The translations under genes and the position numbers were made by a program. From the NCBI GenBank assembly GCA_035275405.1, contig DATEMU010000003.1, forward strand, positions 186,001-250,000: a stretch of 64,000 bases of DNA. Reading direction: 5' to 3'. Shown here piece after piece: positions 3,912 to 61,713 of this stretch. The stretch's first letter is position 1. Each line of letters opens with the position of its first letter. Source of the stretch: Phycisphaerae bacterium (lineage in GTDB: Bacteria > Planctomycetota > Phycisphaerae > UBA1845 > UTPLA1). The notes below the pieces were generated by a model, which did no database searches, was not told the DNA's origin, and was given only the letters and a program-made list of their open reading frames with translations.

Positions 3912-3926
3912 GGGAGAACGGCCATC
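3912..3926 (+). promoter_or_regulatory. Shine-Dalgarno site plus ATC start codon of queA
   Basis: GGGAG at 3912-3916 is followed by seven bases and then ATC at 3924. The reading frame between the preceding in-frame stops (3858 and 3861) and the first ATG (4005) contains no ATG, GTG or TTG. Homology with QueA begins immediately after the ATC, so this ribosome-binding site marks ATC as the probable initiation codon. Confidence 0.6.
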
Positions 3927-4964
3927 CAGACCAGCGAGCTACGCTACGAATTACCGCCCGGGCTCATCGCCCAGCGACCGCTGGAACGGCGGGATGAGGC
4001 ACGCATGCTCGTGCTGCATCGGGCGAACGGGCGAATCGAGCACCGGCGATTCGCCGACCTGACGGAGTATTTGACGCCGCGGGATTGCCTGGTCCTGAAT
4101 GTGTCGCGCGTCCTGCCCGCGCGTTTTACGGCGGTGCGTCAGACGGGCGGGGAGATCCCCGGGCTGTTCCTACGGGAGAGTTCGACGGGCTATTGGCGCG
4201 TACTGCTCGCGGGGGGCGGCAGGCTGCGCGACGGCGAGACACTGACTTTTCGGGGCGGGACGTGGACGCTGACGCTGGTGGAGCGGCTGGAGCGCGGAGA
4301 ATGCGAGGTGCGAGTCGAGCCGCCTGACGCAGCGGCGCTGGTGCTGGCGGTCGTGGGGTCGATGCCGGTTCCGCCGTACATCCGCCGGGACGAGGCTGAT
4401 CCGGAAATGGACCGGCTCGATCGCGAGCACTATCAGACGATTTACGCGTTGCGCGACGGCTCGGTCGCGGCGCCGACGGCGGGGCTGCACTTTACGCCGA
4501 GCCTGATGGAGCGAATCCGAGCCATGGCGACGAGATTCGCCGAACTGGTCCTGCATGTCGGGCTGGGTACGTTTCAGCCGATCGAGGTGGGGGACCTGGC
4601 CGATCACAAGATGCACAGCGAGTGGTACGAACTCCCCGCCAAGTGCGCGGAGACGATCGCGCGGACGCGTGCGGGGGGCGGTCGCGTGGTCGCCGTGGGG
4701 ACGACGAGCGTGCGAGTCCTGGAAACGTGCGCCGACGAGTCCGGGGCCCACGCGGGGTCGGGCACGACCCAACTCCTCATCTATCCTCCGTATCGATTCA
4801 AGGCGACGGACGCACTGGTGACGAATTTTCACCTGCCGGAGAGTACGCTGCTGGCCCTTGTGTTTGCCTTCGCGGGGCGCGAGGCGACGCTGGCCGCGTA
4901 TCGAGAGGCGATTGAACGACAATATCGGTTCTTCAGTTACGGAGATGCGATGCTCGTTATTTGA
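3924..4964 (+). CDS. queA: tRNA preQ1(34) S-adenosylmethionine ribosyltransferase-isomerase QueA
   Basis: QueA transfers and isomerises the ribose of S-adenosylmethionine onto preQ1 at tRNA position 34, making epoxyqueuosine. The first ATG (4005) would give 319 residues and lose the family N-terminus. Upstream in frame the codons read QTSELRYELPPGLIAQRPLE, matching the usual QueA start (K-T-S-D-F-x-Y-x-L-P), with ATC at 3924 in the start position. From there the protein is 346 residues, the normal length. Other family signatures are PTAGLHFTPSLMERI, LHVGLGTFQPIEV, HKMHSEWYELP, GTTSVRVLE and TNFHLPESTLLALVFAFAG. QueC, an earlier enzyme of the same pathway, is encoded at 30057-30761. Function is secure; the ATC start is inferred from homology and the ribosome-binding site. 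Confidence 0.95.
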   Translation: MQTSELRYELPPGLIAQRPLERRDEARMLVLHRANGRIEHRRFADLTEYLTPRDCLVLNVSRVLPARFTAVRQTGGEIPGLFLRESSTGYWRVLLAGGGRLRDGETLTFRGGTWTLTLVERLERGECEVRVEPPDAAALVLAVVGSMPVPPYIRRDEADPEMDRLDREHYQTIYALRDGSVAAPTAGLHFTPSLMERIRAMATRFAELVLHVGLGTFQPIEVGDLADHKMHSEWYELPAKCAETIARTRAGGGRVVAVGTTSVRVLETCADESGAHAGSGTTQLLIYPPYRFKATDALVTNFHLPESTLLALVFAFAGREATLAAYREAIERQYRFFSYGDAMLVI

Positions 4965-22118: not shown

Positions 22119-24662
22119 ATGATGATGGTGTTCAGTTTTATCGCTGCGAAGTCCCACAAAATCGGCGTTCTGGGGTTATCCCTTCTCCTGGCAATGACCG
22201 CCTCCACTGCGGTGGCCCAGCACGGTCACGACGCCGAGTTCTGCGACGAGCCGGTCATCCTCGGTTGCGGAAAGGCCCATGCGATGGCCGCCCATGCCGC
22301 ACAGCAGGACGTTTCGCAGCCGATTCCCGGCCTTCGCGAGGCCATGTCTGACACCGACGTCCTGCACCATACGCTGGACATCGAGATTTCCAACCTGAAC
22401 ACCGGCGCCAACACCTGCACGATCGCGGGCAGCAATGCCACGCTGATCGAGAGCAAATCGCCGGCGCTGACGGAGTACACCTTCCGTCTGCGCAACCAGT
22501 ATGTCATCACCAGCGTGATCATCACCGATGAGTTCGGCGCGAACCCGGTGGATATCACAGCCGGAGTGAACACCGCTTCGACGACCTCGCGGATCGCCAC
22601 TCTTGACCGAACCTACACCGACGGTGAGCGGTTCATTATCACCATCGCATATAACGGGACTTCCGCCTCGCGCGGGTTCGGCTCGATCGATGTGGGCACT
22701 CAAGGCGGCACGCCAGTCGTCGCGACGCTGAGCGAGGCGTATTACGCCTACACCTGGTGGCCCTGCAAAGACGGCGACGTCCAGGTGCCCGGCGACAACT
22801 CCGACAAGTTCACGATGGATTTTTATCTCACTGCGCCAAACAACTATGTCGTGCCCTCCAATGGACTTCAGATGGGCGCCCCCGTGAACCTCGGCGGAGG
22901 CCGGTTGAAGTATCACTGGCACACTGACTATCCCATCTCCACGTATCTCGTCTCTTTCGCGGCAACGAACTACACGAAATGGGAGCAGACCTATTTCTAT
23001 CCCACGGGACCGAATCCGGAAGATGTCGGCGAAATGCCGGTGGAGTTCTACATCTATCCCGGCAACGACTCGCCGGGCAACCGGACGGCCTGGGAAAATG
23101 TCGTCAACATGCTCGGCGTTTTCCGCACGGTTTTCGGCGAATACCCGTTCATCAACGAAAAGTACGGCCACTACAACTTCAACTTCGGCGGCGGCATGGA
23201 GCACCAGACCATTACGGGCCTGGGCACCTTCAGCGAAAGCACGATCGCCCATGAACTTGGCCACCAGTGGTGGGGCGACATGATTACCTGCAAGAACTGG
23301 AACAGTATTTACCTGAATGAGGGTTTCGCCACCTACAGCGAATGTCTCTGGTACGAGCGGAAGGCCGATCCGGACAACCCCAACTTCGCCGCCTACAAGT
23401 CCGCCGTTCTGGCGCGCAAGCCGTCGAGCGTGGGCGGGACGGTCTATGTCTCCGACGCCGGGACGGCCGACATGAATACCATCTTTTCCAGCACGAACAG
23501 CTATCGCAAGGGCGCCTGGGTCCTGCACATGCTTCGCGGCGTCGTCGGCGATGCGGCCTTCTTCGAAATTCTGGCCGACTATCGCGCCGCGTTCGAATTC
23601 TCCGCCGCCTCGGCGCAGGAATTCGCCAGCCTCGCCTCGGCCTCCAGCGGCCAGGACTTGTCCACCTTCTTCGACCAATGGGTGATGAGGCCCGGCGCGC
23701 CGACATACCAGTACGGCTGGCAGTCGATCAACGTCAACGGCCAGAACTACCTCCTGGCGCACATCAACCAGACTCATACCGCCGCCGGATACCCCCTGGT
23801 CTTTGAAATGCCTGTTCCGCTCCGTCTCACCATCGGGGGAAGCCCGCAAACCGTCACCGTGCTGAACAACGGAAATGGAATAAACGAGAATCCCCAAGTG
23901 GATGAAGGTCCAGAGTGGTTTGTCGTGCCGGTCAGCGGGCCGGTTACGGCGTTGGCGTTCGACCCGGATGAATGGATCCTGCGCCTCGCGGCGCCGAGCA
24001 GCGTTGCGTATGTCGCCGGTCCGCCAAAGATCGTGCAGACGGCCCCGTCGCCGGGCGGAACTCTAACGGGGACGCCCAGCCAACTTACGGTCTGGTTTCA
24101 CACCAACGTGAACGCGGTCGACGCAAATTTCTCGCTGGTGGGCAATGCCGGCGGTCCACAAACGACCTGGATCTCTTCGGGCGCGAACGTCAACCCCGTC
24201 GTCATTAACACGTTCTCACCGCTTGCACCCGATACTTACACGCTCACCGTTACCTCCGGCGTAACCGCGGTCAACAGCGGAATGGCTCTGGACGGCGAGA
24301 TCGCGAATCCGGTCAGCCCGGCCTCGCTGCCCTCCGGCGACGGCACCGTGGGCGGCAACGCGGTAATTCAATTCAATGTGTGCAACGTCTCTGTCGCGCC
24401 GGCGTCGCTGCCCGCGACGTTTGTCGACCGAGCGTATAATAAGACGGTTTCCGCCAGCGGTGGAAACGGCGCCTACAGTTTTGCGGTGACAGCCGGCAAT
24501 CTCCCACCGGGGCTCACGCTGACCCCCGCCGGCAACTTGACCGGCTCGGCCACACAAGGCGGGACGTTCAACTTCACCGTAACAGCCACGGATACCTCAG
24601 GGTGCTCAAGCAACCGGGCGTATTCAATTGTGGTTCGAGCTCGTGTGATCGATCCGATTTGA
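22119..24662 (+). CDS. Secreted M1-family zinc metallopeptidase, tandem copy 1 (Ig-like C-terminus)
   Basis: Exported zinc aminopeptidase-like protein of family M1. Signal peptide ends near AVAQHGHD. The catalytic domain carries the exopeptidase-type motif as GGMEHQTITG (GAMEN in most members) and the zinc site HELGHQWWGD with H378, E379, H382 and the third ligand E401 in NEGFA (HExxH-x18-E). Past about residue 640 come an Ig-like domain (PPKIVQTAPSPGGTLTGTPS) and a second one of putative-Ig type (YSFAVTAGNLPPGLTLTPAG), which replace the ERAP1-like C-terminal domain. AAAAGGG lies just before the cluster of three start ATGs (22119, 22122, 22125). A paralogue follows directly. Role: extracellular peptide breakdown, by inference. 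Confidence 0.9.
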   Translation: MMMVFSFIAAKSHKIGVLGLSLLLAMTASTAVAQHGHDAEFCDEPVILGCGKAHAMAAHAAQQDVSQPIPGLREAMSDTDVLHHTLDIEISNLNTGANTCTIAGSNATLIESKSPALTEYTFRLRNQYVITSVIITDEFGANPVDITAGVNTASTTSRIATLDRTYTDGERFIITIAYNGTSASRGFGSIDVGTQGGTPVVATLSEAYYAYTWWPCKDGDVQVPGDNSDKFTMDFYLTAPNNYVVPSNGLQMGAPVNLGGGRLKYHWHTDYPISTYLVSFAATNYTKWEQTYFYPTGPNPEDVGEMPVEFYIYPGNDSPGNRTAWENVVNMLGVFRTVFGEYPFINEKYGHYNFNFGGGMEHQTITGLGTFSESTIAHELGHQWWGDMITCKNWNSIYLNEGFATYSECLWYERKADPDNPNFAAYKSAVLARKPSSVGGTVYVSDAGTADMNTIFSSTNSYRKGAWVLHMLRGVVGDAAFFEILADYRAAFEFSAASAQEFASLASASSGQDLSTFFDQWVMRPGAPTYQYGWQSINVNGQNYLLAHINQTHTAAGYPLVFEMPVPLRLTIGGSPQTVTVLNNGNGINENPQVDEGPEWFVVPVSGPVTALAFDPDEWILRLAAPSSVAYVAGPPKIVQTAPSPGGTLTGTPSQLTVWFHTNVNAVDANFSLVGNAGGPQTTWISSGANVNPVVINTFSPLAPDTYTLTVTSGVTAVNSGMALDGEIANPVSPASLPSGDGTVGGNAVIQFNVCNVSVAPASLPATFVDRAYNKTVSASGGNGAYSFAVTAGNLPPGLTLTPAGNLTGSATQGGTFNFTVTATDTSGCSSNRAYSIVVRARVIDPI
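23544..23687. repeat. 144-bp tract shared with the second M1 gene, copy 1
   Basis: This stretch matches 26162-26305 at every position but one (GGCC versus GACC in the codon for Ala/Thr in the ILADYRA / ILTDYRA region). The flanking coding sequence of the two genes differs at many synonymous positions, so this tract is more alike than its surroundings, as expected after recent gene conversion. Confidence 0.8.
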
Positions 24663-24760
24663 TTCGGTACCCTCCGACCGCCGGTTCGAAGTTCGCGGAG
24701 TTTGCAGAATGTCGTTGGGGGCCTTCTGCACCTTTAGCGGTAAAGGAGTTTCCTTACGTG

Positions 24761-27205
24761 ATGAACTACGCTCCAATCGTTTTCAAATGGCGGCGGCCAA
24801 TTTCGGCCGCTTGCGTCGCATGGGTGCTCGGCTCCACCGCGTCGTTCGTTTTCGCCCAGGACGGCCATGATGTCGAATCCTGCGACGAGCCAGTGATCCT
24901 CGGTTGCGGAAAGGCCCAGGCCCTGGCAGCCGCGCACGCCGCCCAGGATCTCTCGGAACCCGTTCCGGGGCTTCGGGAGGCCATGACCGAAACGGATGTC
25001 CTGCACCATACGCTGGACATCGAAATCTCCAACTTCGACACGGTGAATAACCACTGCACGATCGCAGGTAGCAACGCCACACTGATCGAGAGTAATTCGC
25101 CGGCGCTGACCCAGTACACGTTTCGCTTACGCAACCAATACGTCATCACCAGCGTGATTATCACCGATGAGTTCGGCGGAAATCCCGTCGATATTACCGC
25201 CGGCCTGACGACGCCCTCCACCACGACGCGCGTGGTCACGCTCGATCAAAGCTACGCGGAGGGCGAGCGGTTCATCATCACGATCAGCTACAACGGAAGC
25301 TCGGAATCGCGAGGCTTCGGGTCCATCGACGTCAAGACGCAATCCGGCACGCCCGTCGTGGCCACGCTGAGCGAAGCCTACTATGCGTACACCTGGTGGC
25401 CGTGCAAGGATGGCGATGTCCAGGTGCCCGGAGACAACTCCGACAAGTTTACGATGGACTTTTATCTCACCGCGCCAAACAACTACGTCGTGCCTTCGAA
25501 TGGGTTGCAGATGGGAGCGCCGCTCAACCTCGGAGGCGGTCGCCTGAAGTACCACTGGCATACCGATTATCCGATTTCCACCTATCTCGTGTCTTTCGCG
25601 GCGACCAACTACACCCAATGGTCGCAGACCTACAATTACCCGGGCGGCACCATGCCGGTCGAGTTCTACATCTACCCCGGCAACGACACGCCGGGCAACC
25701 GAACGGCCTGGGAAAATGTTATCAACATGCTCGCCGTCTTCCGCACCGTCTACGGCGAATACCCTTTCATCAACGAGAAATACGGCCACTACAACTTCAA
25801 CTTCGGTGGTGGCATGGAACACCAGACCATCACCGGCCTGGGGACGTTCAGCGAGAGCACGATCGCCCACGAGCTGGGCCACCAGTGGTGGGGGGACATG
25901 ATCACCTGCAAGAACTGGAACAGCATTTATCTGAACGAAGGCTTCGCTACCTACAGCGAATGTCTCTGGTATGAGCGAAAGGTCGATCCGGAAAATCCCG
26001 ACTTCGCCGCCTACAAATCCGCCATCCTCGCTCGCAAGCCATCGAGCGCTGGTGGGACGGTCTATGTGTCCGACGCGGGAACAGCCAGTATGAACACGAT
26101 TTTCAGCAGCGATAACAGCTATCGCAAGGGCGCGTGGGTGCTGCATATGCTCCGTGGGGCCGTCGGCGATGCGGCCTTCTTCGAAATTCTGACCGACTAT
26201 CGCGCCGCGTTCGAATTCTCCGCCGCCTCGGCGCAGGAATTCGCCAGCCTCGCCTCGGCCTCCAGCGGCCAGGACTTGTCCACCTTCTTCGACCAATGGG
26301 TGATGCGACCCGGTGCTCCGACGTATCAGTACGGATGGCAGTCGGTCAACGTCAACAGCCAGAATTACCTTTTGGCGCACATCAATCAGACACAAACCAC
26401 AACGGATTACCCCAAGGTCTTCGAAATGCCCGTCCCGCTTCGCCTCACCATCGGCGGAAGCCCGCAGACCGTGACGGTTATGAACGATGGAAACGGAGTT
26501 CTGGAAGTCCCCGAGCAGGCGGATGAAGGCGCGGAGTGGTTTGTGGTGCCGGTAAGCGGGAACGTGACCGCCCTGGCCTTTGATCCGGATGAATGGATCC
26601 TGCGCGTCGCGACACCGAGCAGCGTTGCCTATGTCCCCGGTCCGCCGAAGATCGTGCAAACGGTTCCCGCGCCGGGCGCGGGCGTGGTGCAGACCATTAG
26701 TCCGAGCCAACTCACGGTCTGGTTCCATACTCCAGTCAATACGGCCAACGCACACTATTCACTGGTCGGTGACGTGAACGGCCCGCAGACCGTGTCCATC
26801 GTCTCCGGAGCCAATGTCAATCCCGTCGTCATCAACACCGCCGCCCCCTTGCCGCCGGACAATTATTCGTTGACCGTGACGAGCGGCGGCGTGACGGCGG
26901 TGAACAGCGGTTTGGCGCTCGACGGCGAAGTCGCCGATCCGCTCGATCCGGCCTCGCTGCCGTCCGGCGACGGCACGATCGGGGGTAACGCGGTCATTCG
27001 CTTCGAGGTGACGCCGTGCAGCGTGCTGGCCGACATCGACGCCGATTGCGACAAAGACCCGATCGACATCGATCTCTTTGTGGACGTTCTCCTGGAGAAC
27101 GACACGGATCCCGGCCATATGGCCCGCAGTGATGTCAACAACAGCGGGCTGCCGCCCGATGCGCTCGACATTCAGCCGTTCATCGACGAACACTTGACGC
27201 CGTAG
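24761..27205 (+). CDS. Secreted M1-family zinc metallopeptidase, tandem copy 2 (dockerin-like C-terminus)
   Basis: Paralogue of the preceding gene, starting about 100 bases after it. The signal peptide ends near FVFAQDGHD. The zinc site HELGHQWWGD (H370, E371, H374) and the third ligand in NEGFA (E393) are intact, and GGMEHQTITG is conserved. Copy 2 lacks an eight- to nine-residue insert found in copy 1 near WEQTYFYPTGPNPED. After the first Ig-like domain the ending differs: a pair of EF-hand-like loops (DIDADCDKDPIDIDLFVDVL and MARSDVNNSGLPPDALDIQP) forms a dockerin-like module. AAGGAG at 24743-24748 lies 9 bases from an in-frame GTG (24758) and 12 from the ATG (24761), so either may be used. 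Confidence 0.9.
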   Translation: MNYAPIVFKWRRPISAACVAWVLGSTASFVFAQDGHDVESCDEPVILGCGKAQALAAAHAAQDLSEPVPGLREAMTETDVLHHTLDIEISNFDTVNNHCTIAGSNATLIESNSPALTQYTFRLRNQYVITSVIITDEFGGNPVDITAGLTTPSTTTRVVTLDQSYAEGERFIITISYNGSSESRGFGSIDVKTQSGTPVVATLSEAYYAYTWWPCKDGDVQVPGDNSDKFTMDFYLTAPNNYVVPSNGLQMGAPLNLGGGRLKYHWHTDYPISTYLVSFAATNYTQWSQTYNYPGGTMPVEFYIYPGNDTPGNRTAWENVINMLAVFRTVYGEYPFINEKYGHYNFNFGGGMEHQTITGLGTFSESTIAHELGHQWWGDMITCKNWNSIYLNEGFATYSECLWYERKVDPENPDFAAYKSAILARKPSSAGGTVYVSDAGTASMNTIFSSDNSYRKGAWVLHMLRGAVGDAAFFEILTDYRAAFEFSAASAQEFASLASASSGQDLSTFFDQWVMRPGAPTYQYGWQSVNVNSQNYLLAHINQTQTTTDYPKVFEMPVPLRLTIGGSPQTVTVMNDGNGVLEVPEQADEGAEWFVVPVSGNVTALAFDPDEWILRVATPSSVAYVPGPPKIVQTVPAPGAGVVQTISPSQLTVWFHTPVNTANAHYSLVGDVNGPQTVSIVSGANVNPVVINTAAPLPPDNYSLTVTSGGVTAVNSGLALDGEVADPLDPASLPSGDGTIGGNAVIRFEVTPCSVLADIDADCDKDPIDIDLFVDVLLENDTDPGHMARSDVNNSGLPPDALDIQPFIDEHLTP
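26162..26305. repeat. 144-bp tract shared with the first M1 gene, copy 2
   Basis: Partner of 23544-23687, with a single base difference in 144. Lies in the C-terminal half of the catalytic domain, encoding the segment from VGDAAFFEIL to FFDQWVM. Confidence 0.8.
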
Positions 27206-46746: not shown

Positions 46747-47886
46747 ATGAAAATCGCCATCGTTCTGGACTCGCTGGCTCGCGGCGGCGCCGAGCGACAA
46801 GCCATGTTCGCCGCGCGCGAACTGACGCGACACGGCCGGGACGTCGAGTTGATCTACTACCATCGCATCGAAGACGGTTATGACCCGGCGATCATGGAGG
46901 ATACCCGCGTCACGTACCTGCCCAAGGACGGCGCTTATTGGGGCCATCTGCTGCGGCTGAAGAATCACCTCAAGCGAGGCCGCTTCGATATTGTGCACGG
47001 GTTCAAGAGCAGCCCGACGCTTTACGCCGCGCCCGCAGGACGATGGGCCGGCGCGGCGGTCGTCCTGGGGGGCATTCGGTGCGAATATGACGATACGGGG
47101 TTGGTCCGCCTCGGACATCGAGTCGCGAACCGGATGCTCGACGGCTGGGTGGTAAACTCACGGGCAACGACCGAGTCGCTGGTCCGCGAGTTGGGCGTGA
47201 ACCCGGACCGGGTCTTCGTCGTACCAAACGGGATAGAGCCGCAATCGTTTCAAACACCTTTGTCGCCCGAAGAAGCCAAACATCGCCTGGGGATACCCCC
47301 GCATTGCGGGGTCGTGTCGATATTCGCGGCAATACGACCGCAGAAGAACCATGGACTGTTCATTGAAATGGCATCGCGAGTGCTCAAGCGGCTGCCCCAC
47401 ACCCGGTTTCTTGTCATTGGGGACGGCGAAAAACGCGCGGAGTTCGAGCGGCAGGCTGAAGTGATCAGTATCGCCAGGAGCGTTCTGTTCCTGGGCAACC
47501 GCGCGGATATTCCCGAACTGCTCGCCGCGACGGATATATCCGTGCTCACGTCCCATTATGAAGGGCTTGCCAACGCCCTCTTGGAGGCGATGGCGGTGGG
47601 AATACCGGTCGTCACGACCGGGTACGCCGGTGCGGATGAACTGGTAAGTGACGGCCATGAGGGGTACATCACGCCGATGGGCGACGCCGAGGCGATGGCT
47701 CAACAAATTATCGAGTTACTGGAAGATCCCGCCCATCGGCGGCGGCTGGGAGAAAACGGCCGGCGAACGGTGGCCGCGCGATTTGAAATGCCCACCATGG
47801 CGAATAATCTGTACGGCGTTTACGAACGTTGCTTTGCGGAGTCCAAGCGAAAACGACGCGCCTCTTTTTCCGGCGCGACGTCCTGA
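46747..47886 (+). CDS. GT4-family glycosyltransferase
   Basis: Retaining glycosyltransferase of the GT-B fold, family 4. The N-terminal domain opens MKIAIVLDSLARGGAERQAM with the glycine-rich acceptor loop. The C-terminal donor site contains VFVVPNGIEPQSFQ, FLVIGDGEKRAEFERQ, FLGNRADIPELLAATDISV and the catalytic E-x7-E-type SHYEGLANALLEAMAVGIPV. It adds a sugar to a lipid-linked acceptor on the cytoplasmic face. The product overlaps no neighbour; the first asparagine-synthase-type gene begins 32 bases after its stop. Confidence 0.92.
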   Translation: MKIAIVLDSLARGGAERQAMFAARELTRHGRDVELIYYHRIEDGYDPAIMEDTRVTYLPKDGAYWGHLLRLKNHLKRGRFDIVHGFKSSPTLYAAPAGRWAGAAVVLGGIRCEYDDTGLVRLGHRVANRMLDGWVVNSRATTESLVRELGVNPDRVFVVPNGIEPQSFQTPLSPEEAKHRLGIPPHCGVVSIFAAIRPQKNHGLFIEMASRVLKRLPHTRFLVIGDGEKRAEFERQAEVISIARSVLFLGNRADIPELLAATDISVLTSHYEGLANALLEAMAVGIPVVTTGYAGADELVSDGHEGYITPMGDAEAMAQQIIELLEDPAHRRRLGENGRRTVAARFEMPTMANNLYGVYERCFAESKRKRRASFSGATS

Positions 47887-47918
47887 CGATCACTTCTCGC
47901 CCTACTGGAATCAGTACT

Positions 47919-49793
47919 ATTTGCGGAATTTGCGGCATCGTTGATTTTGCGTCCGGCGGACCGGATGAAGCTGTTGTTGGGAAAATGGTGCGCGCACTAT
48001 CGCATCGCGGACCGGACGACAGCGGAGTCTGGGTGAAAGGGCCGGCGGGGCTGGGACAGGCGCGACTCAGCATCATCGACTTGTCGCCGACCGGGCATCA
48101 GCCGATGTCCACGGATGACGGCCGTTACACAATTACTTACAACGGTGAGATCTACAACTTTCCGGAGATTCGGCGCGAGTTGGAGGGGGAGGGGGTCCGA
48201 TTTCGCGGCCGCTCGGACACGGAAGTGGCGTTGAATGCGTACGCACGCTGGGGATCCGCGGCTTTCTCCCGATTCAACGGCATGTTCGCCATCGCGTTGT
48301 GGGATGATCGCGAGCAGCGCATTTGCCTGGTACGCGATCGATTCGGGATCAAACCGCTTTACTATCACGCGTTCGCCGGCGGAATCGTTTTTGGCTCGGA
48401 AATGAAGGCCATCCTGGCGTCATGCCGGGCCCGGCGCACGATGGACTGGCACGCACTGTCCGAATACATGTACTATGGGAATCCGCTCGGGCCACATACC
48501 TTCTTCGAGAATATTCGCCGCCTTCTGGCGGGAGAGTACCTCACCGTGGATCGCAATGGACTGAACATCGCGGCCTATTGGAGAGTGGAGGACATCCCGG
48601 CCGTTGCAGACAACATCGAGCAAGCGACCGGCCGCGTGCGCGAACTGATGGACAAGGCCGTCGAGCGTCATTTGATCAGCGACGTGCCGGTAGGCGTGTT
48701 CCTGAGCGGCGGAATAGATTCATCGACAGTGACGGCCCTGGCCTCGCGCCATCATTCGGGACGGCTACGGACCTACTCGGTCGGTTTTGATGTGGAACAC
48801 GGGATCAACGAGCTTCCCAAGGCGCGGCGGGTAGCCGAACGATTCGGCACCGAACATCAGGAGCTTCGAATCGCGGGCAAGAACATGCCCGACATTATTG
48901 AGCGGCTGGTGCGCTGCCACGACGAGCCCTTCGCCGATTCGGCCAACCTCGCGTTGTACCTGCTCTGCGAAGCACTAAAGGGATCCGTCAAAGTGATCCT
49001 GCAAGGGGACGGCGGGGACGAGATCTTCGCGGGGTATCGGCGCTATAACGTCCTTTCGTTTGAGAGATTCTGGCGCGGCGTGTCGCGTCCCGCGATGGCG
49101 GCGGCGGCGCTCATCTTCCGCGGCCCGACCTATTATCGAGCCACCCGCTTCTTCCGGGCGATGAGCGACCCGGACCCGGCGATGCGCATGGCGCTGATGC
49201 TGACCGAGGAGCCGTTTGACGATCCGCCGACGCGCGTCCTTTCCAAAGAGGCGATGCAGCGCGTTTCGACGCTGGATCCCTTCGAGCGTTACAGAGAACT
49301 CTACGCGCGGCTGCGGCATCTCGATCCGGTGCAGAGAATGCTCCACGCCGATTGCCAGATTTTGTTAACCGACCAGTTTCTAGAAAAGGTCGATCGCGCG
49401 ACGATGGCGCACAGTATTGAGGTTCGAGTGCCGTTCCTCGATGCCGAAATGACGCAGTATGTCATGGGGCTGCCGTCGGCGATGAAGGTCAAGCGCGGCC
49501 AGAAGAAGTGGATTCTGCGAAAAGCCATGCGCGGCATCGTGCCGGACGAGATTCTCGACGGCCCCAAAACGGGATTCGGGGTGCCGTTCAAGGACTGGAT
49601 GGGCGGGTCGCTGGCCGAGTACGCGAAATCGGTCCTCTTGGATCCGGCGACGACGTCTTGGGGGCTGTTCGAGCCACGCGCTCTGGAGCAGGCGTTTCAA
49701 GAGCACTTGGCGGGGACGCGAAACAACGGCTTTTTGCTGTATAAATTGCTGAACCTCGCGCTGTGGCGCCGGTTTTACCTCTGCGAGAACTAA
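47919..49793 (+). CDS. asnB: Asparagine synthase-type glutamine amidotransferase, copy 1 (ATT start)
   Basis: Class II glutamine-dependent amidotransferase with the asparagine-synthase domain. The N-terminal catalytic Cys must be residue 2; the frame reads CGICGIVDFASGG directly after ATT at 47919. Between a TTG inside the previous gene (47829) and this point there is no ATG, GTG or TTG, so ATT is the likely start; the 30-residue longer product would bury the Cys. Glutaminase motifs: SHRGPDDSG, NGEIYNF, SDTEV, FNGMFAIALWD. The synthetase PP-loop SGGIDSS lies near residue 263. In polysaccharide loci such proteins amidate uronic-acid carboxylates. 624 residues; a related copy lies at 50930-52861. 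Confidence 0.92.
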   Translation: MCGICGIVDFASGGPDEAVVGKMVRALSHRGPDDSGVWVKGPAGLGQARLSIIDLSPTGHQPMSTDDGRYTITYNGEIYNFPEIRRELEGEGVRFRGRSDTEVALNAYARWGSAAFSRFNGMFAIALWDDREQRICLVRDRFGIKPLYYHAFAGGIVFGSEMKAILASCRARRTMDWHALSEYMYYGNPLGPHTFFENIRRLLAGEYLTVDRNGLNIAAYWRVEDIPAVADNIEQATGRVRELMDKAVERHLISDVPVGVFLSGGIDSSTVTALASRHHSGRLRTYSVGFDVEHGINELPKARRVAERFGTEHQELRIAGKNMPDIIERLVRCHDEPFADSANLALYLLCEALKGSVKVILQGDGGDEIFAGYRRYNVLSFERFWRGVSRPAMAAAALIFRGPTYYRATRFFRAMSDPDPAMRMALMLTEEPFDDPPTRVLSKEAMQRVSTLDPFERYRELYARLRHLDPVQRMLHADCQILLTDQFLEKVDRATMAHSIEVRVPFLDAEMTQYVMGLPSAMKVKRGQKKWILRKAMRGIVPDEILDGPKTGFGVPFKDWMGGSLAEYAKSVLLDPATTSWGLFEPRALEQAFQEHLAGTRNNGFLLYKLLNLALWRRFYLCEN

Positions 49794-49794
49794 T

Positions 49795-50916
49795 TTGACC
49801 GCCGCCGCCCCACCTCCCGATTTGGCGATCCTCGGTTCATATCCGCCGCCCTACGGAGGCGTGGCGGTGCACGTGCAGCGGCTCTGCCCGCTGCTGGAGG
49901 CCCGCGGCGTTCGCTTCGTCGTGTACAATGCGACGGGCGACTTCGGCGACGGGCGGCGCGTCGTGTCGGTCTTTTCTCAGCGCCGATCGTGGATCATTCG
50001 TTACGCCTTCACGAGCCGCGAGCGAGCGGTCTTTCTGATGTCCGATCGATTGACGACGTGGGTGGCGGCGGCGCTGATGGTGATGTTGCGGGGGAAACGC
50101 GTCGCGATCCGGCTGCGAAATGCGGCACTGCCCGATTGGATCACGCAATCGGGTTGGCGCCGCCGCCTGGCCGGATTCGCCCTGCGCCGAATGACGGCCG
50201 TCGTTTGTGTTAGCCCTTTGTTGATGAAATCCGCCCGCTCGTTGGGTGTTCCGTCAGATCGACTTCATTTGTCTCCGGGATTCTTGCCGCCGGCGGATGC
50301 CCAGGCCGATGGAAACGCGGTGAATCCGGAGGTTCTGGATTTCGTTCATCGGCGCGGGCCGATTATTGCGGCGAATGGCAAGGTCGATTGGTATCGAGGC
50401 GAGGATCTTTACGGATTGGACCACCTGTTGGAACTGGCGGCGCGGCTGAAGCCCGATTATCCCAACATCGGCGTCGTTGCGTGCATGTGGAATCATTTGC
50501 CGGGCGACGACGACTACATTCAGAAATTGAGGGAGGAGGCACGCCGCCGCGGCGTCAGCGATGCGGTGCTCTTCAACACCCGCAGCGGCGTTTTCGTACC
50601 GGTCCTCGCCGAGGCCGACGTCTTCATCCGGCCGACCAACACCGACGGTGACGCGAATAGCGTCCGCGAAGGACTGTATTTTGGCATACCGACGATCGCG
50701 AGTGATGCGGTCGAGCGACCGCCGGGGACCATCCTCTTTCGCACGCGCGACATAGACGACATGGAGGCCAAAGTCCGCACGGTCCTTCAAAGACGCGGGC
50801 CGGACGAGCGTCCCTCGCCCGAACTCAGGGCCGAGGATCGAGCGAGAATTGATCGTTACCTCGATTTACTGGAATCCCTGGCCCGGGGCGGCACGTCGCC
50901 GGCGCGACTAGTTTAG
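49795..50916 (+). CDS. GT4-like glycosyltransferase
   Basis: Second glycosyltransferase of the locus, GT-B fold. It starts with TTG at 49795, one base after the previous stop. The N-terminal LAILGSYPPPYGGVAVHVQR matches the acceptor loop (G-G-V-x-x-H) of family 4; the C-terminal half has VDWYRGEDLYGLDHLLELAA, VLFNTRSGVFVPVLAEADVF and the acidic RPTNTDGDANSVREGLYFGI in place of a classic E-x7-E. It probably transfers a sugar at the cytoplasmic face; donor unknown. With the first GT4, these are the only two glycosyltransferases visible in the locus. Confidence 0.82.
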   Translation: MTAAAPPPDLAILGSYPPPYGGVAVHVQRLCPLLEARGVRFVVYNATGDFGDGRRVVSVFSQRRSWIIRYAFTSRERAVFLMSDRLTTWVAAALMVMLRGKRVAIRLRNAALPDWITQSGWRRRLAGFALRRMTAVVCVSPLLMKSARSLGVPSDRLHLSPGFLPPADAQADGNAVNPEVLDFVHRRGPIIAANGKVDWYRGEDLYGLDHLLELAARLKPDYPNIGVVACMWNHLPGDDDYIQKLREEARRRGVSDAVLFNTRSGVFVPVLAEADVFIRPTNTDGDANSVREGLYFGIPTIASDAVERPPGTILFRTRDIDDMEAKVRTVLQRRGPDERPSPELRAEDRARIDRYLDLLESLARGGTSPARLV

Positions 50917-50929
50917 AGAACCCAACCAT

Positions 50930-52861
50930 ATGTGCGGAATCTGCGGATATGTCGGCGTCCATCGGCCGGAGCTGCTGGAGCCAATGTGTCTGGCCATGAG
51001 CCATCGCGGGCCCGACGACATGGGCACGTGGCATGACCAGGCTGGGCCGGTCGGACTGGGGCATCGCCGTCTTTCGATCATCGACCTCAGCCCGGCCGGA
51101 CATCAGCCGATGACGAACGAGGATGGGTCAGTCTGGATCTCGTATAACGGCGAGATCTACGACTTCCAGAGGCATCGCGAGCGATTGGTTGCCCAGGGCC
51201 ATCAGTTCCGAAGTCAGAGCGACACCGAAGTACTGGTGCATTTGTACGAGGAACTGGGGCCGGATTTTGTAGGCGAACTAAACGGGATCTTCGCTATCGC
51301 CCTCTGGGATTCGCGGCAGCGGCAGTTGTTGTTGGCGCGGGACCACGCGGGAATCAAACCCCTGTACTACTGGCAGGATGGCGAGAAGCTCTATTTCGCG
51401 TCGGAGATCAAGGCCTTGACGCGGATTCCCGAACTGCCGCGCGAATTGAATGAGAACGCCGTGCCGCAGTATCTGACGCTCCTGTGGGTGCCCGGTGAGG
51501 AGACGATGCTCAAGGCCGTGCGCAAGATTGAGCCCGGGCATTTGCTGCTATGGAAGGACGGGCGAATCACGACGCGGCAGTGGTTTTCACTGGATTACGA
51601 GCCCGATGAGTCGGTCAGCGAGGCGGAGTGGATTGAGCGCGTTCACGATACATTCATGCGGACGACGCGGCGGCAGATGGTGTCGGACGTGCCGCTGGGC
51701 GCGTTTCTCTCCGGTGGGACCGATTCGTCGGCGATCGTTGCGTGCATGAGACAATCGTTCCCGGATCGACCGATCAGTTGTTATACCTACACCTTCGACG
51801 CGGCCGACATGGCCCGCGATCAATTCGAATACGATTACCCCTATGCGCAGGAAGTGGCTCGGATCTTGAACGTGCGGCTGAAGTCGTTTCATCTGCGACC
51901 GGACGTCATTTCCATTCTCCCCAAGCTCGTCTATCACATGGACGAACCGGACGCGGACCAGTCCATCTTTCCTGCATACTTGATTTCGAAGCTCGCGCGG
52001 GAGGATGGGACGACGGTGCTTCTGTCGGGAACGGGCGGCGACGAGGTCTTCTTCGGCTATCGCAGCCATCAGGCGCTTCGACGGATGGAGAAACTGCGCT
52101 GGATACCGCGCTGGCTGATGTCGCCGGCCCTCGCGGCGGCGAGCGGGGTCAGCACATCGCTGATGGGGGCGCAAAGCGCGCTGCCTCGGCGGCTGCGCAA
52201 GTTTCGCAGCGGGCTCATGGGCAATGGGGTAGAGCGGTTTCTGGCGCTGTCGGACTGGTCGAGCCCGACGGCCCGCGAGCGGATTTACACGAATGGATTA
52301 GCCTCGCGGCTGGACGGGACGCGTACCGCGTCGGCGGTCCTCCAGAAATACTACGACAGCTTTCGCGGTACGGGCGAGTTGAACCGGCGCTCGCACATCC
52401 TGATCCAGACGTTTCTGGCGGCGCACAACTTCAACTATACGGATAAGACGAGCATGGCGGCGTCGGTCGAGACCCGCGTCCCCTATCTGGACGTGGAACT
52501 GATGCGGCTTTGCGCGCAAATCCCGGAGCGGTATAAGCTGAAGGGATTAGAGACGAAGTATCTTCTGAAGGAGGCGATGCTGCCGTACCTTCCGCGATCG
52601 GTGCTCTATCGAAGCAAGACGGGTTTCGGCGCCCCCCTGCGAAAATGGGTGGCGGAAGATTTGCGGGATTGCCTCCAGGAACAGCTGGGCCCCCGGCGGC
52701 TGGGGAGCCGCGGCCTTTTTGAACGTACCGCCATTGGGCACATCCTGAAAGAAAACGAAGAAAACAAGGCGGATCACGCCTACTTGATTTACGCGCTATT
52801 GAATCTGGAGTTATGGTTACAAACGTTTGTCGATCGGGCCGGCGAGCCGGTCAGTCTATGA
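50930..52861 (+). CDS. asnB: Asparagine synthase-type glutamine amidotransferase, copy 2
   Basis: Same family as 47919-49793 but from a canonical ATG: MCGICGYVGVHRPELLE. Motifs: SHRGPDDMG, YNGEIYDF, SDTEVLVHLYEELGPDF, LNGIFAIALWD, and the PP-loop AFLSGGTDSSAIVA near residue 258; a further YTDKTSMAASVETRVPYLDV segment is typical. 643 residues. No Shine-Dalgarno site is obvious. Paired amidotransferases occur in exosortase-associated and other EPS loci, where they are thought to amidate sugar carboxylates; amino-acid synthesis is the alternative. The relationship to copy 1 is family-level, not a recent duplication by eye. Confidence 0.93.
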   Translation: MCGICGYVGVHRPELLEPMCLAMSHRGPDDMGTWHDQAGPVGLGHRRLSIIDLSPAGHQPMTNEDGSVWISYNGEIYDFQRHRERLVAQGHQFRSQSDTEVLVHLYEELGPDFVGELNGIFAIALWDSRQRQLLLARDHAGIKPLYYWQDGEKLYFASEIKALTRIPELPRELNENAVPQYLTLLWVPGEETMLKAVRKIEPGHLLLWKDGRITTRQWFSLDYEPDESVSEAEWIERVHDTFMRTTRRQMVSDVPLGAFLSGGTDSSAIVACMRQSFPDRPISCYTYTFDAADMARDQFEYDYPYAQEVARILNVRLKSFHLRPDVISILPKLVYHMDEPDADQSIFPAYLISKLAREDGTTVLLSGTGGDEVFFGYRSHQALRRMEKLRWIPRWLMSPALAAASGVSTSLMGAQSALPRRLRKFRSGLMGNGVERFLALSDWSSPTARERIYTNGLASRLDGTRTASAVLQKYYDSFRGTGELNRRSHILIQTFLAAHNFNYTDKTSMAASVETRVPYLDVELMRLCAQIPERYKLKGLETKYLLKEAMLPYLPRSVLYRSKTGFGAPLRKWVAEDLRDCLQEQLGPRRLGSRGLFERTAIGHILKENEENKADHAYLIYALLNLELWLQTFVDRAGEPVSL

Positions 52862-60617: not shown

Positions 60618-61220
60618 TCAGCGGCGGGGGCGTCGGCGGGCGGCCATAATCAAGCCGGCATTGCCAAGCATTACAAACGTGGATGGTTCCGGGATGGCCT
60701 GAAATGTCGTATCGGAAAATCCAACTTCGAAGAACAGAACTCCCCCGCTTGTCTGAATCGGGGCAAAGGGATCGCCCCATTGAAGCAAGAGTGCGCTGCC
60801 GCTAACGGGCCCCACCGCATCCAACATATTCCATGTCGAGAAAGCTGGATTGGACGGTCCCGCAATGAGGGCGGACCCGCCTTCTATGGATCGTGCGTAC
60901 TCGACTGTACTTGAGCTGTTGGATACCGATGTGTGAGTGGGTGTAAGGATGTCAAAGGTGCCCAAGCCGGCAATTAATATTGATGAGGCTTGGTGAGGAA
61001 TTTTAAGAGACCCAAAAAAGGGAACCCGGTCGTCGGTATCGCCGACCGATGTGATCTTAAAGTCCCTCAAAGAGAACGGCTCACCGTCCAGCGTTCCCGC
61101 TCCAACCCCCGCATGGACAAACGAAATCAGCGTCGCCTGCGCAGATGCCGTAGTCGTAGACAATAGAGCGATTGCGAGCAATCCGGCCCTGAGCGCGCCC
61201 ATCGTCATCACCGATTGCAT
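60618..61220 (-). CDS. PEP-CTERM sorting-domain protein
   Basis: Exported protein of 200 residues. ATG at 61220 is chosen because AGGAGGAG lies five bases ahead; it gives a signal peptide (MTMGALRAGLLAIALLSTTT, ASAQA). The C-terminus is a PEP-CTERM anchor: PEPSTF, a hydrophobic helix (VMLGNAGLIMAA) and a basic tail (RRRPRR). Exosortases recognise this signal and sort such proteins to the cell surface, usually in organisms with EPS loci. No exosortase gene is in the window. The mature domain is otherwise unrecognised. The gene is convergent with the end of the EPS locus. Confidence 0.87.
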   Translation of the reverse strand: MQSVMTMGALRAGLLAIALLSTTTASAQATLISFVHAGVGAGTLDGEPFSLRDFKITSVGDTDDRVPFFGSLKIPHQASSILIAGLGTFDILTPTHTSVSNSSSTVEYARSIEGGSALIAGPSNPAFSTWNMLDAVGPVSGSALLLQWGDPFAPIQTSGGVLFFEVGFSDTTFQAIPEPSTFVMLGNAGLIMAARRRPRR

Positions 61221-61713
61221 CCGGACTCCTCCTAGAAGACAGGACAGATCACCCACCTCTGGTCACAGCGAAGGGGATTAGCAGCCCCCATCAGTATAAC
61301 AGAATCGACTGAGCGATTCTTCCTGTTGCCTGGCAAATCTGAACCGTGGTGATTACCGGTCGGACGTCAGATCAAGCTGGCCGAAGCTGGCTGCGAGTCA
61401 GAATCGAAAAGAGTGGTTGGGCCGGGCCCGATGACCCCGCATTGAAATGCGTGGCAATAGCCGGCCGGCTGAAGGCCGGCCCCGGCGTTTGGTGAATTCG
61501 ATCCCTTCGGGATCGATCAGAATTTGGGCGGGGCTTGTGAACAGGGGCGTTGCCCCTGCCTACTTTCGGTCAGCCCTTCGGGCTGAAAATTAGTCGGCAG
61601 ATCTCGTAGACTCGACCCTTTCAGCCAAGGGTTCAACCGGCCCTATTGATTCGGCTTGCCTTATCGATGGGGCTCGTAGACGCGCGGGATGCGGGTTTTT
61701 AGACTTTCGGGCC
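61221..61713. other. Intergenic region with a cluster of palindromes before recQ
   Basis: No gene is supported. The part from 61460 to 61586 holds four palindromes in series: GCCGGCC/GGCCGGC (61460-61480), CGATCCC-TTC-GGGATCG (61499-61515), CAGGGGC-GTT-GCCCCTG (61542-61558) and TCAGCCC-TTC-GGGCTGA (61570-61586). Three have 7-base arms and 3-base loops. The rest shows nothing recognisable beyond likely promoter space for recQ and the divergent PEP-CTERM gene. Confidence 0.65.

Follow-up and report, generated by a model that had tools for sequence, protein, structure and literature searches.

The asparagine synthase-type gene (asnB) of the window, the whole 64,000-nucleotide stretch of DNA analysed here, appears to start at an ATT codon at 47919, an assignment well supported by comparison with related sequences. 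We consider it probable that this gene is translated from AUU as a gene-specific weak start discriminated against by IF3, within a small set that also contains infC and queA. To our knowledge, very few natural bacterial genes beyond infC are known with AUU, AUC or AUA starts (together AUH).

The asnB start codon in the window

The earlier note had claimed that ATT precedes CGICGIVDF and that the only canonical start upstream is a TTG within the glycosyltransferase gene, which would add 30 residues. Both claims were borne out. The frame reads ATT and then TGC GGA ATT TGC GGC ATC GTT GAT TTT, and the TTG, 30 codons 5' and inside the GT4 gene, is the lone in-frame ATG, GTG or TTG before the upstream stop. 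The product matched TIGR01536 over profile positions 1-517 of 517 with 505.2 bits (cut-off 267.1), and the XrtA/PEP-CTERM amidotransferase model TIGR03108 with 517.1 bits, under its cut-off of 816.9. In an alignment with PDB 7ylz, residue 1 falls on Met1, and both proteins continue with Cys-Gly. The Cys codon stands directly 3' of the initiator codon (ATT-TGC), the arrangement by which membership of TIGR01536 was judged; we take this N-terminal Cys to be the catalytic residue, as family knowledge has it. The product resembles TIGR01536 and TIGR03108 proteins in its full-length match, N-terminal Cys and synthetase domain, and differs from them in starting at ATT instead of ATG and in scoring below the TIGR03108 cut-off. 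The features are listed in Table 1.

Table 1. Positions of asnB, queA and infC features (window coordinates unless a contig is given)
Feature	Position	Strand	Remarks
asnB, asparagine synthase-type CDS (class II glutamine amidotransferase + synthetase), 624 aa	47919..49793	+	exopolysaccharide-type gene cluster; TIGR01536, PF00733, PF13537, PF13522
ATT, assigned initiation codon of asnB	47919..47921	+	homologous to the family's Met codon
TGC, presumed catalytic N-terminal Cys of asnB	47922..47924	+	Cys-Gly shared with PDB 7ylz
GGAA, weak Shine-Dalgarno-like motif of asnB	47907..47910	+	8 nt before ATT
TTG, sole in-frame upstream candidate for asnB, rejected as start	47829..47831	+	leader unconserved; in relatives, a stop 9-13 codons upstream and no canonical start
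GT4 glycosyltransferase gene preceding asnB	46747..47886	+	conserved upstream of all six orthologs
Glycosyltransferase gene following asnB	49795..50916	+	TTG start, 1 nt past the asnB stop
Second AsnB-type paralog	50930..52861	+	ATG start; internal control
queA	3924..4964	+	NF001140, 411 bits (cut-off 324); match begins at profile position 2
ATC, assigned initiation codon of queA (MQTSELRYELPPGLIAQ)	3924-3926	+	GGGAG at 3912-3916, 7 nt upstream
infC (L001, G000:C11)	start ~C11:70624	-	ATT start after AAAGGAAGGTGA

Elsewhere in the window, 22119-24662 and 24602-27205 encode adjacent, very similar large proteins with an HELGHQWWGD motif, apparently metallopeptidases arisen by tandem duplication. 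Close to the exopolysaccharide-type cluster, the product of 60618-61256 has a PEP-CTERM-like sorting signal (PEPSTFVMLGNAGLIMAARRRPRR) at its C-terminus.

The asnB start codon in relatives

The ortholog set consisted of asnB from the window genome (G000) and from G001, G002, G008, G012, G013 and G015, all of one bacterial family; the seven genes form a well-supported clade in the ortholog tree. The homologous start codon is ATT in G000, G002 and G013 (3 of the 7, across two genera), ATG in G001, G008 and G015, and GTG in G012. Relatives with ATG replacing ATT, which the earlier note had listed, combined with no expression of this copy, as a possible objection, do exist, and any selection for a weak start would not be universal among the orthologs; the two other genomes that keep ATT, G002 and G013, belong to a different genus from the window genome. 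In these two (loci L006 and L005), no ATG, GTG or TTG occurs back to a stop that lies 9 codons upstream in G002 and 13 in G013, and a GGGAG motif precedes the ATT by 7 nt. Their proteins are 87% identical to each other and each about 62% identical to the window protein. The reading frame is intact, and dN of 0.08 against dS of 0.91 between them indicates that asnB is under purifying selection.

ATT persists over the two genera at dS of about 0.9-1.9. Conservation in the alignment begins sharply at the ATT, and the 5' sequence does not align. Other sampled family members outside the ortholog group start with ATG or GTG, and one with TTG, but never with ATT; four further paralogs on contig C3 of the window genome, including the one at 50930, start with ATG. 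The two ATT lineages are basal in the ortholog tree, so that ATT may be ancestral and ATG and GTG may have arisen by later reversion.

queA, a second gene with a non-canonical start

The earlier note had paired asnB with queA as two conserved genes in 64 kb requiring an AUC or AUU start, and the comparison agrees. No in-frame ATG, GTG or TTG is present in the window queA from the ATC back to the stop, and the first canonical codon downstream is found only 27 codons into the conserved domain. Of 16 family genomes, 12 have ATC, ATT or ATA as the queA start, three have ATG and one has GTG; five of the 12 (G000, G002, G007, G011 and G013) have no canonical in-frame codon back to the stop. The third base varies among ATC, ATT and ATA, and G is avoided in most of the family. 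An order-wide pattern search returned ATH in 7/7 matching genes of the window's family and ATG, GTG or TTG in 30/30 comparable genes of families f2-f7. In family f8 the position is mostly Phe, with one ATC, so the N-terminus differs there. This distribution indicates that the AUH start of queA is characteristic of the family and not peculiar to this locus. A text search of limited literature scope found no report of queA with AUC or AUU starts, an absence that is not proof.

infC, IF3 and the initiator tRNA

The infC gene of the window genome has an ATT start itself, as do those of G001, G002, G007, G008, G009, G010, G011, G012, G013 and G015; a conserved AAAGGAAGG-type motif precedes it in most of the family. 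Many genomes from other families of the order have ATC. In G003, G005, G006, G014 and G016 the ATT is lost, and a reading of the sequence suggests that TTG or ATG is used instead (apparently TTG in genus g7 and in G005). The comparison of infC and IF3 proposed in the earlier note showed that most discrimination residues are kept. Aligned to E. coli IF3, the protein retains R25, Q33 and Y75, and R66 of E. coli is replaced by Lys in the window genome and most of the family. Presumably these residues matter for start-codon discrimination. The pattern GGGCTCATAACCC has one match genome-wide, inside a tRNA at C14:211972-212044. This tRNA, identified as the initiator from pattern and position alone, carries the standard anticodon arm GGG-CTCATAA-CCC. 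Neither the initiator tRNA nor IF3 looks abnormal, and the discrimination machinery seems to bear no sign of degradation.

The start codons of infC and queA co-vary in a manner that is suggestive. In 10 of the 11 genomes with AUU infC, queA has an AUH start, the exception being G008 with ATG. Among the five genomes with apparent TTG or ATG infC, queA starts with ATG or GTG in three and with AUC in the other two, where an in-frame GTG or ATG lies 3-4 codons upstream; three of the five share one genus, so that few independent events are represented. AUH infC alone does not predict AUH queA, as other families combine infC ATC with queA ATG, GTG or TTG.

Start-codon choice across the genome

The earlier note had also raised relaxed start-codon choice, and had suggested a genome scan for conserved N-termini at ATT or ATC. 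For glmS, an N-terminal Cys likewise dictates where translation must begin, and that codon is ATG in 30/30 genomes, the window genome included. A hexamer coding scan (1.18 Mb, about 1/4 of the genome; 788 confident C3 genes) and an ortholog scan (175 pairs with 0.8 Mb of G001, of which 69 were undecidable) each yielded queA alone as a clear AUH start. The scans thus recovered queA and found no broad AUH use in the quarter of the genome covered; together with the ATG starts of the AsnB-type paralogs and the normal tRNA and IF3, they give no support to relaxed choice. The coding scan is blind to AUH genes having an upstream canonical codon, such as asnB with its TTG. Because of such cases, the undecided pairs (69 of 175) and the fraction of the genome scanned, the genome may hold a few more AUH genes. 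A strong Shine-Dalgarno motif precedes 25% of first canonical starts in C3 versus 9% in the background, a signal too weak to inform the choice of start. In a membrane protein gene at G000:C3:830595 (minus strand), the coding signal runs 35 codons 5' of the best ATG, GTG or TTG start, and a non-canonical start is possible there.

Discussion

In the proposed mechanism, the ordinary fMet initiator tRNA would start at the AUU at 47919, its CAU anticodon being mismatched at the third codon position, and deformylase and methionine aminopeptidase would then expose the catalytic Cys of the asnB product. IF3 would discriminate against this AUU; therefore, asnB output is expected to be low and to rise when IF3 is scarce, as for infC. 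The AUH set of the family would be small, comprising infC (AUU), queA (AUC/AUU/AUA) and window-type asnB. Translation from AUU, low expression and the response to IF3 are all inferred here. IF3-sensitive control, the other explanation offered in the earlier note, fits in that the ATT start is conserved in the family's infC, the gene for IF3; the control of asnB by IF3 is still a prediction. One study describes a codon-anticodon preference of IF3 by which weak third-base pairs are rejected, with drop-off and reinitiation at the second codon (PMC10158994). It may be speculated that such drop-off and second-codon reinitiation on asnB would give a chain beginning directly at Cys. Counting against our reading, the Shine-Dalgarno-like motif of the window asnB is weak, and no functional tie of this exopolysaccharide-cluster asnB to IF3 or queA is apparent.

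Two AUU-start genes are found in E. coli, infC and pcnB, and infC is autoregulated by IF3, which represses it through that codon (PMC9410913). The window genome resembles this case in the AUU start of asnB and the ATT of its own infC. It differs in that the genes concerned are an exopolysaccharide-cluster amidotransferase and queA, whose IF3 response is predicted. In S. aureus, infC (AUA), cvfC1 (AUU) and ccpN (AUA) have conserved weak starts with extended Shine-Dalgarno motifs, and initiation at the cvfC1 and ccpN codons gave less reporter output than AUG did (PMC13009471). The AUH starts described here, clearly conserved in queA and present in 3 of 7 asnB orthologs, are similar to those of this set and of B. 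subtilis ccpN (AUA); those genes, however, have strong extended Shine-Dalgarno motifs and were measured by profiling and reporters, whereas the window asnB has a weak motif. What marks genes of the infC, pcnB and ccpN kind is an AUH codon lacking a usable canonical start: this is found for asnB in G002 and G013, while G000 has only the TTG 30 codons upstream. The genes asnB and queA appear to be new members of this kind of gene.

A change from ATG to ATT may also have been tolerated through neutral drift, in an enzyme needed in small amounts and free of IF3 regulation. The mixture of ATT, ATG and GTG among the orthologs and the weak motif of the window asnB are consistent with this, but ATT has been maintained over two genera at the divergence given above, and queA ranges over ATC, ATT and ATA with third-base G avoided; we regard drift as a real but rather unlikely explanation. 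Equally tentative, and slightly more doubtful, is the idea of an IF3-governed start-codon regulon, in which infC would autoregulate via AUU and queA, with asnB in some genera, would be selected for AUH so that output tracks IF3; the co-variation of infC and queA start codons speaks for it.

An organism-wide relaxation, in which altered IF3 or initiator tRNA allows broad AUU/AUC/AUA use, would account for two AUH starts in 64 kb plus infC, and the Lys at R66 might be cited for it. The glmS and paralog starts, the scans that yielded only queA in about a quarter of the genome and the standard, single initiator anticodon arm argue against it, and infC still has AUU, which implies that start-codon discrimination is working; we consider such relaxation improbable. 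Propeptides occur in other Ntn-type amidotransferases, for example Bacillus PurF and GltB, and TTG 47829 is a legal in-frame start, so a start there or at a near-cognate codon (CTG 47883) with autocatalytic removal of 12-30 residues was weighed. This form is very unlikely on comparative grounds: the leader is unconserved, the stops in G002 and G013 leave no canonical start, the remaining orthologs place ATG or GTG at the ATT position, and the TTG falls within the upstream gene. A pseudogene or an assembly error that erased the ATG is very unlikely too and scarcely credible, since the draft-like assembly (19 contigs, 96% complete) is set against an intact 624-aa frame with its catalytic motifs, purifying selection in G002 and G013, and the identical ATT in two separate genomes.

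Gene callers limited to ATG, GTG and TTG would shorten queA by 27 residues here and lengthen asnB by 30, masking the catalytic N-terminal Cys. A clade that keeps AUH starts in queA, and in asnB in some genera, would provide a natural test of whether the level of IF3 regulates other genes.
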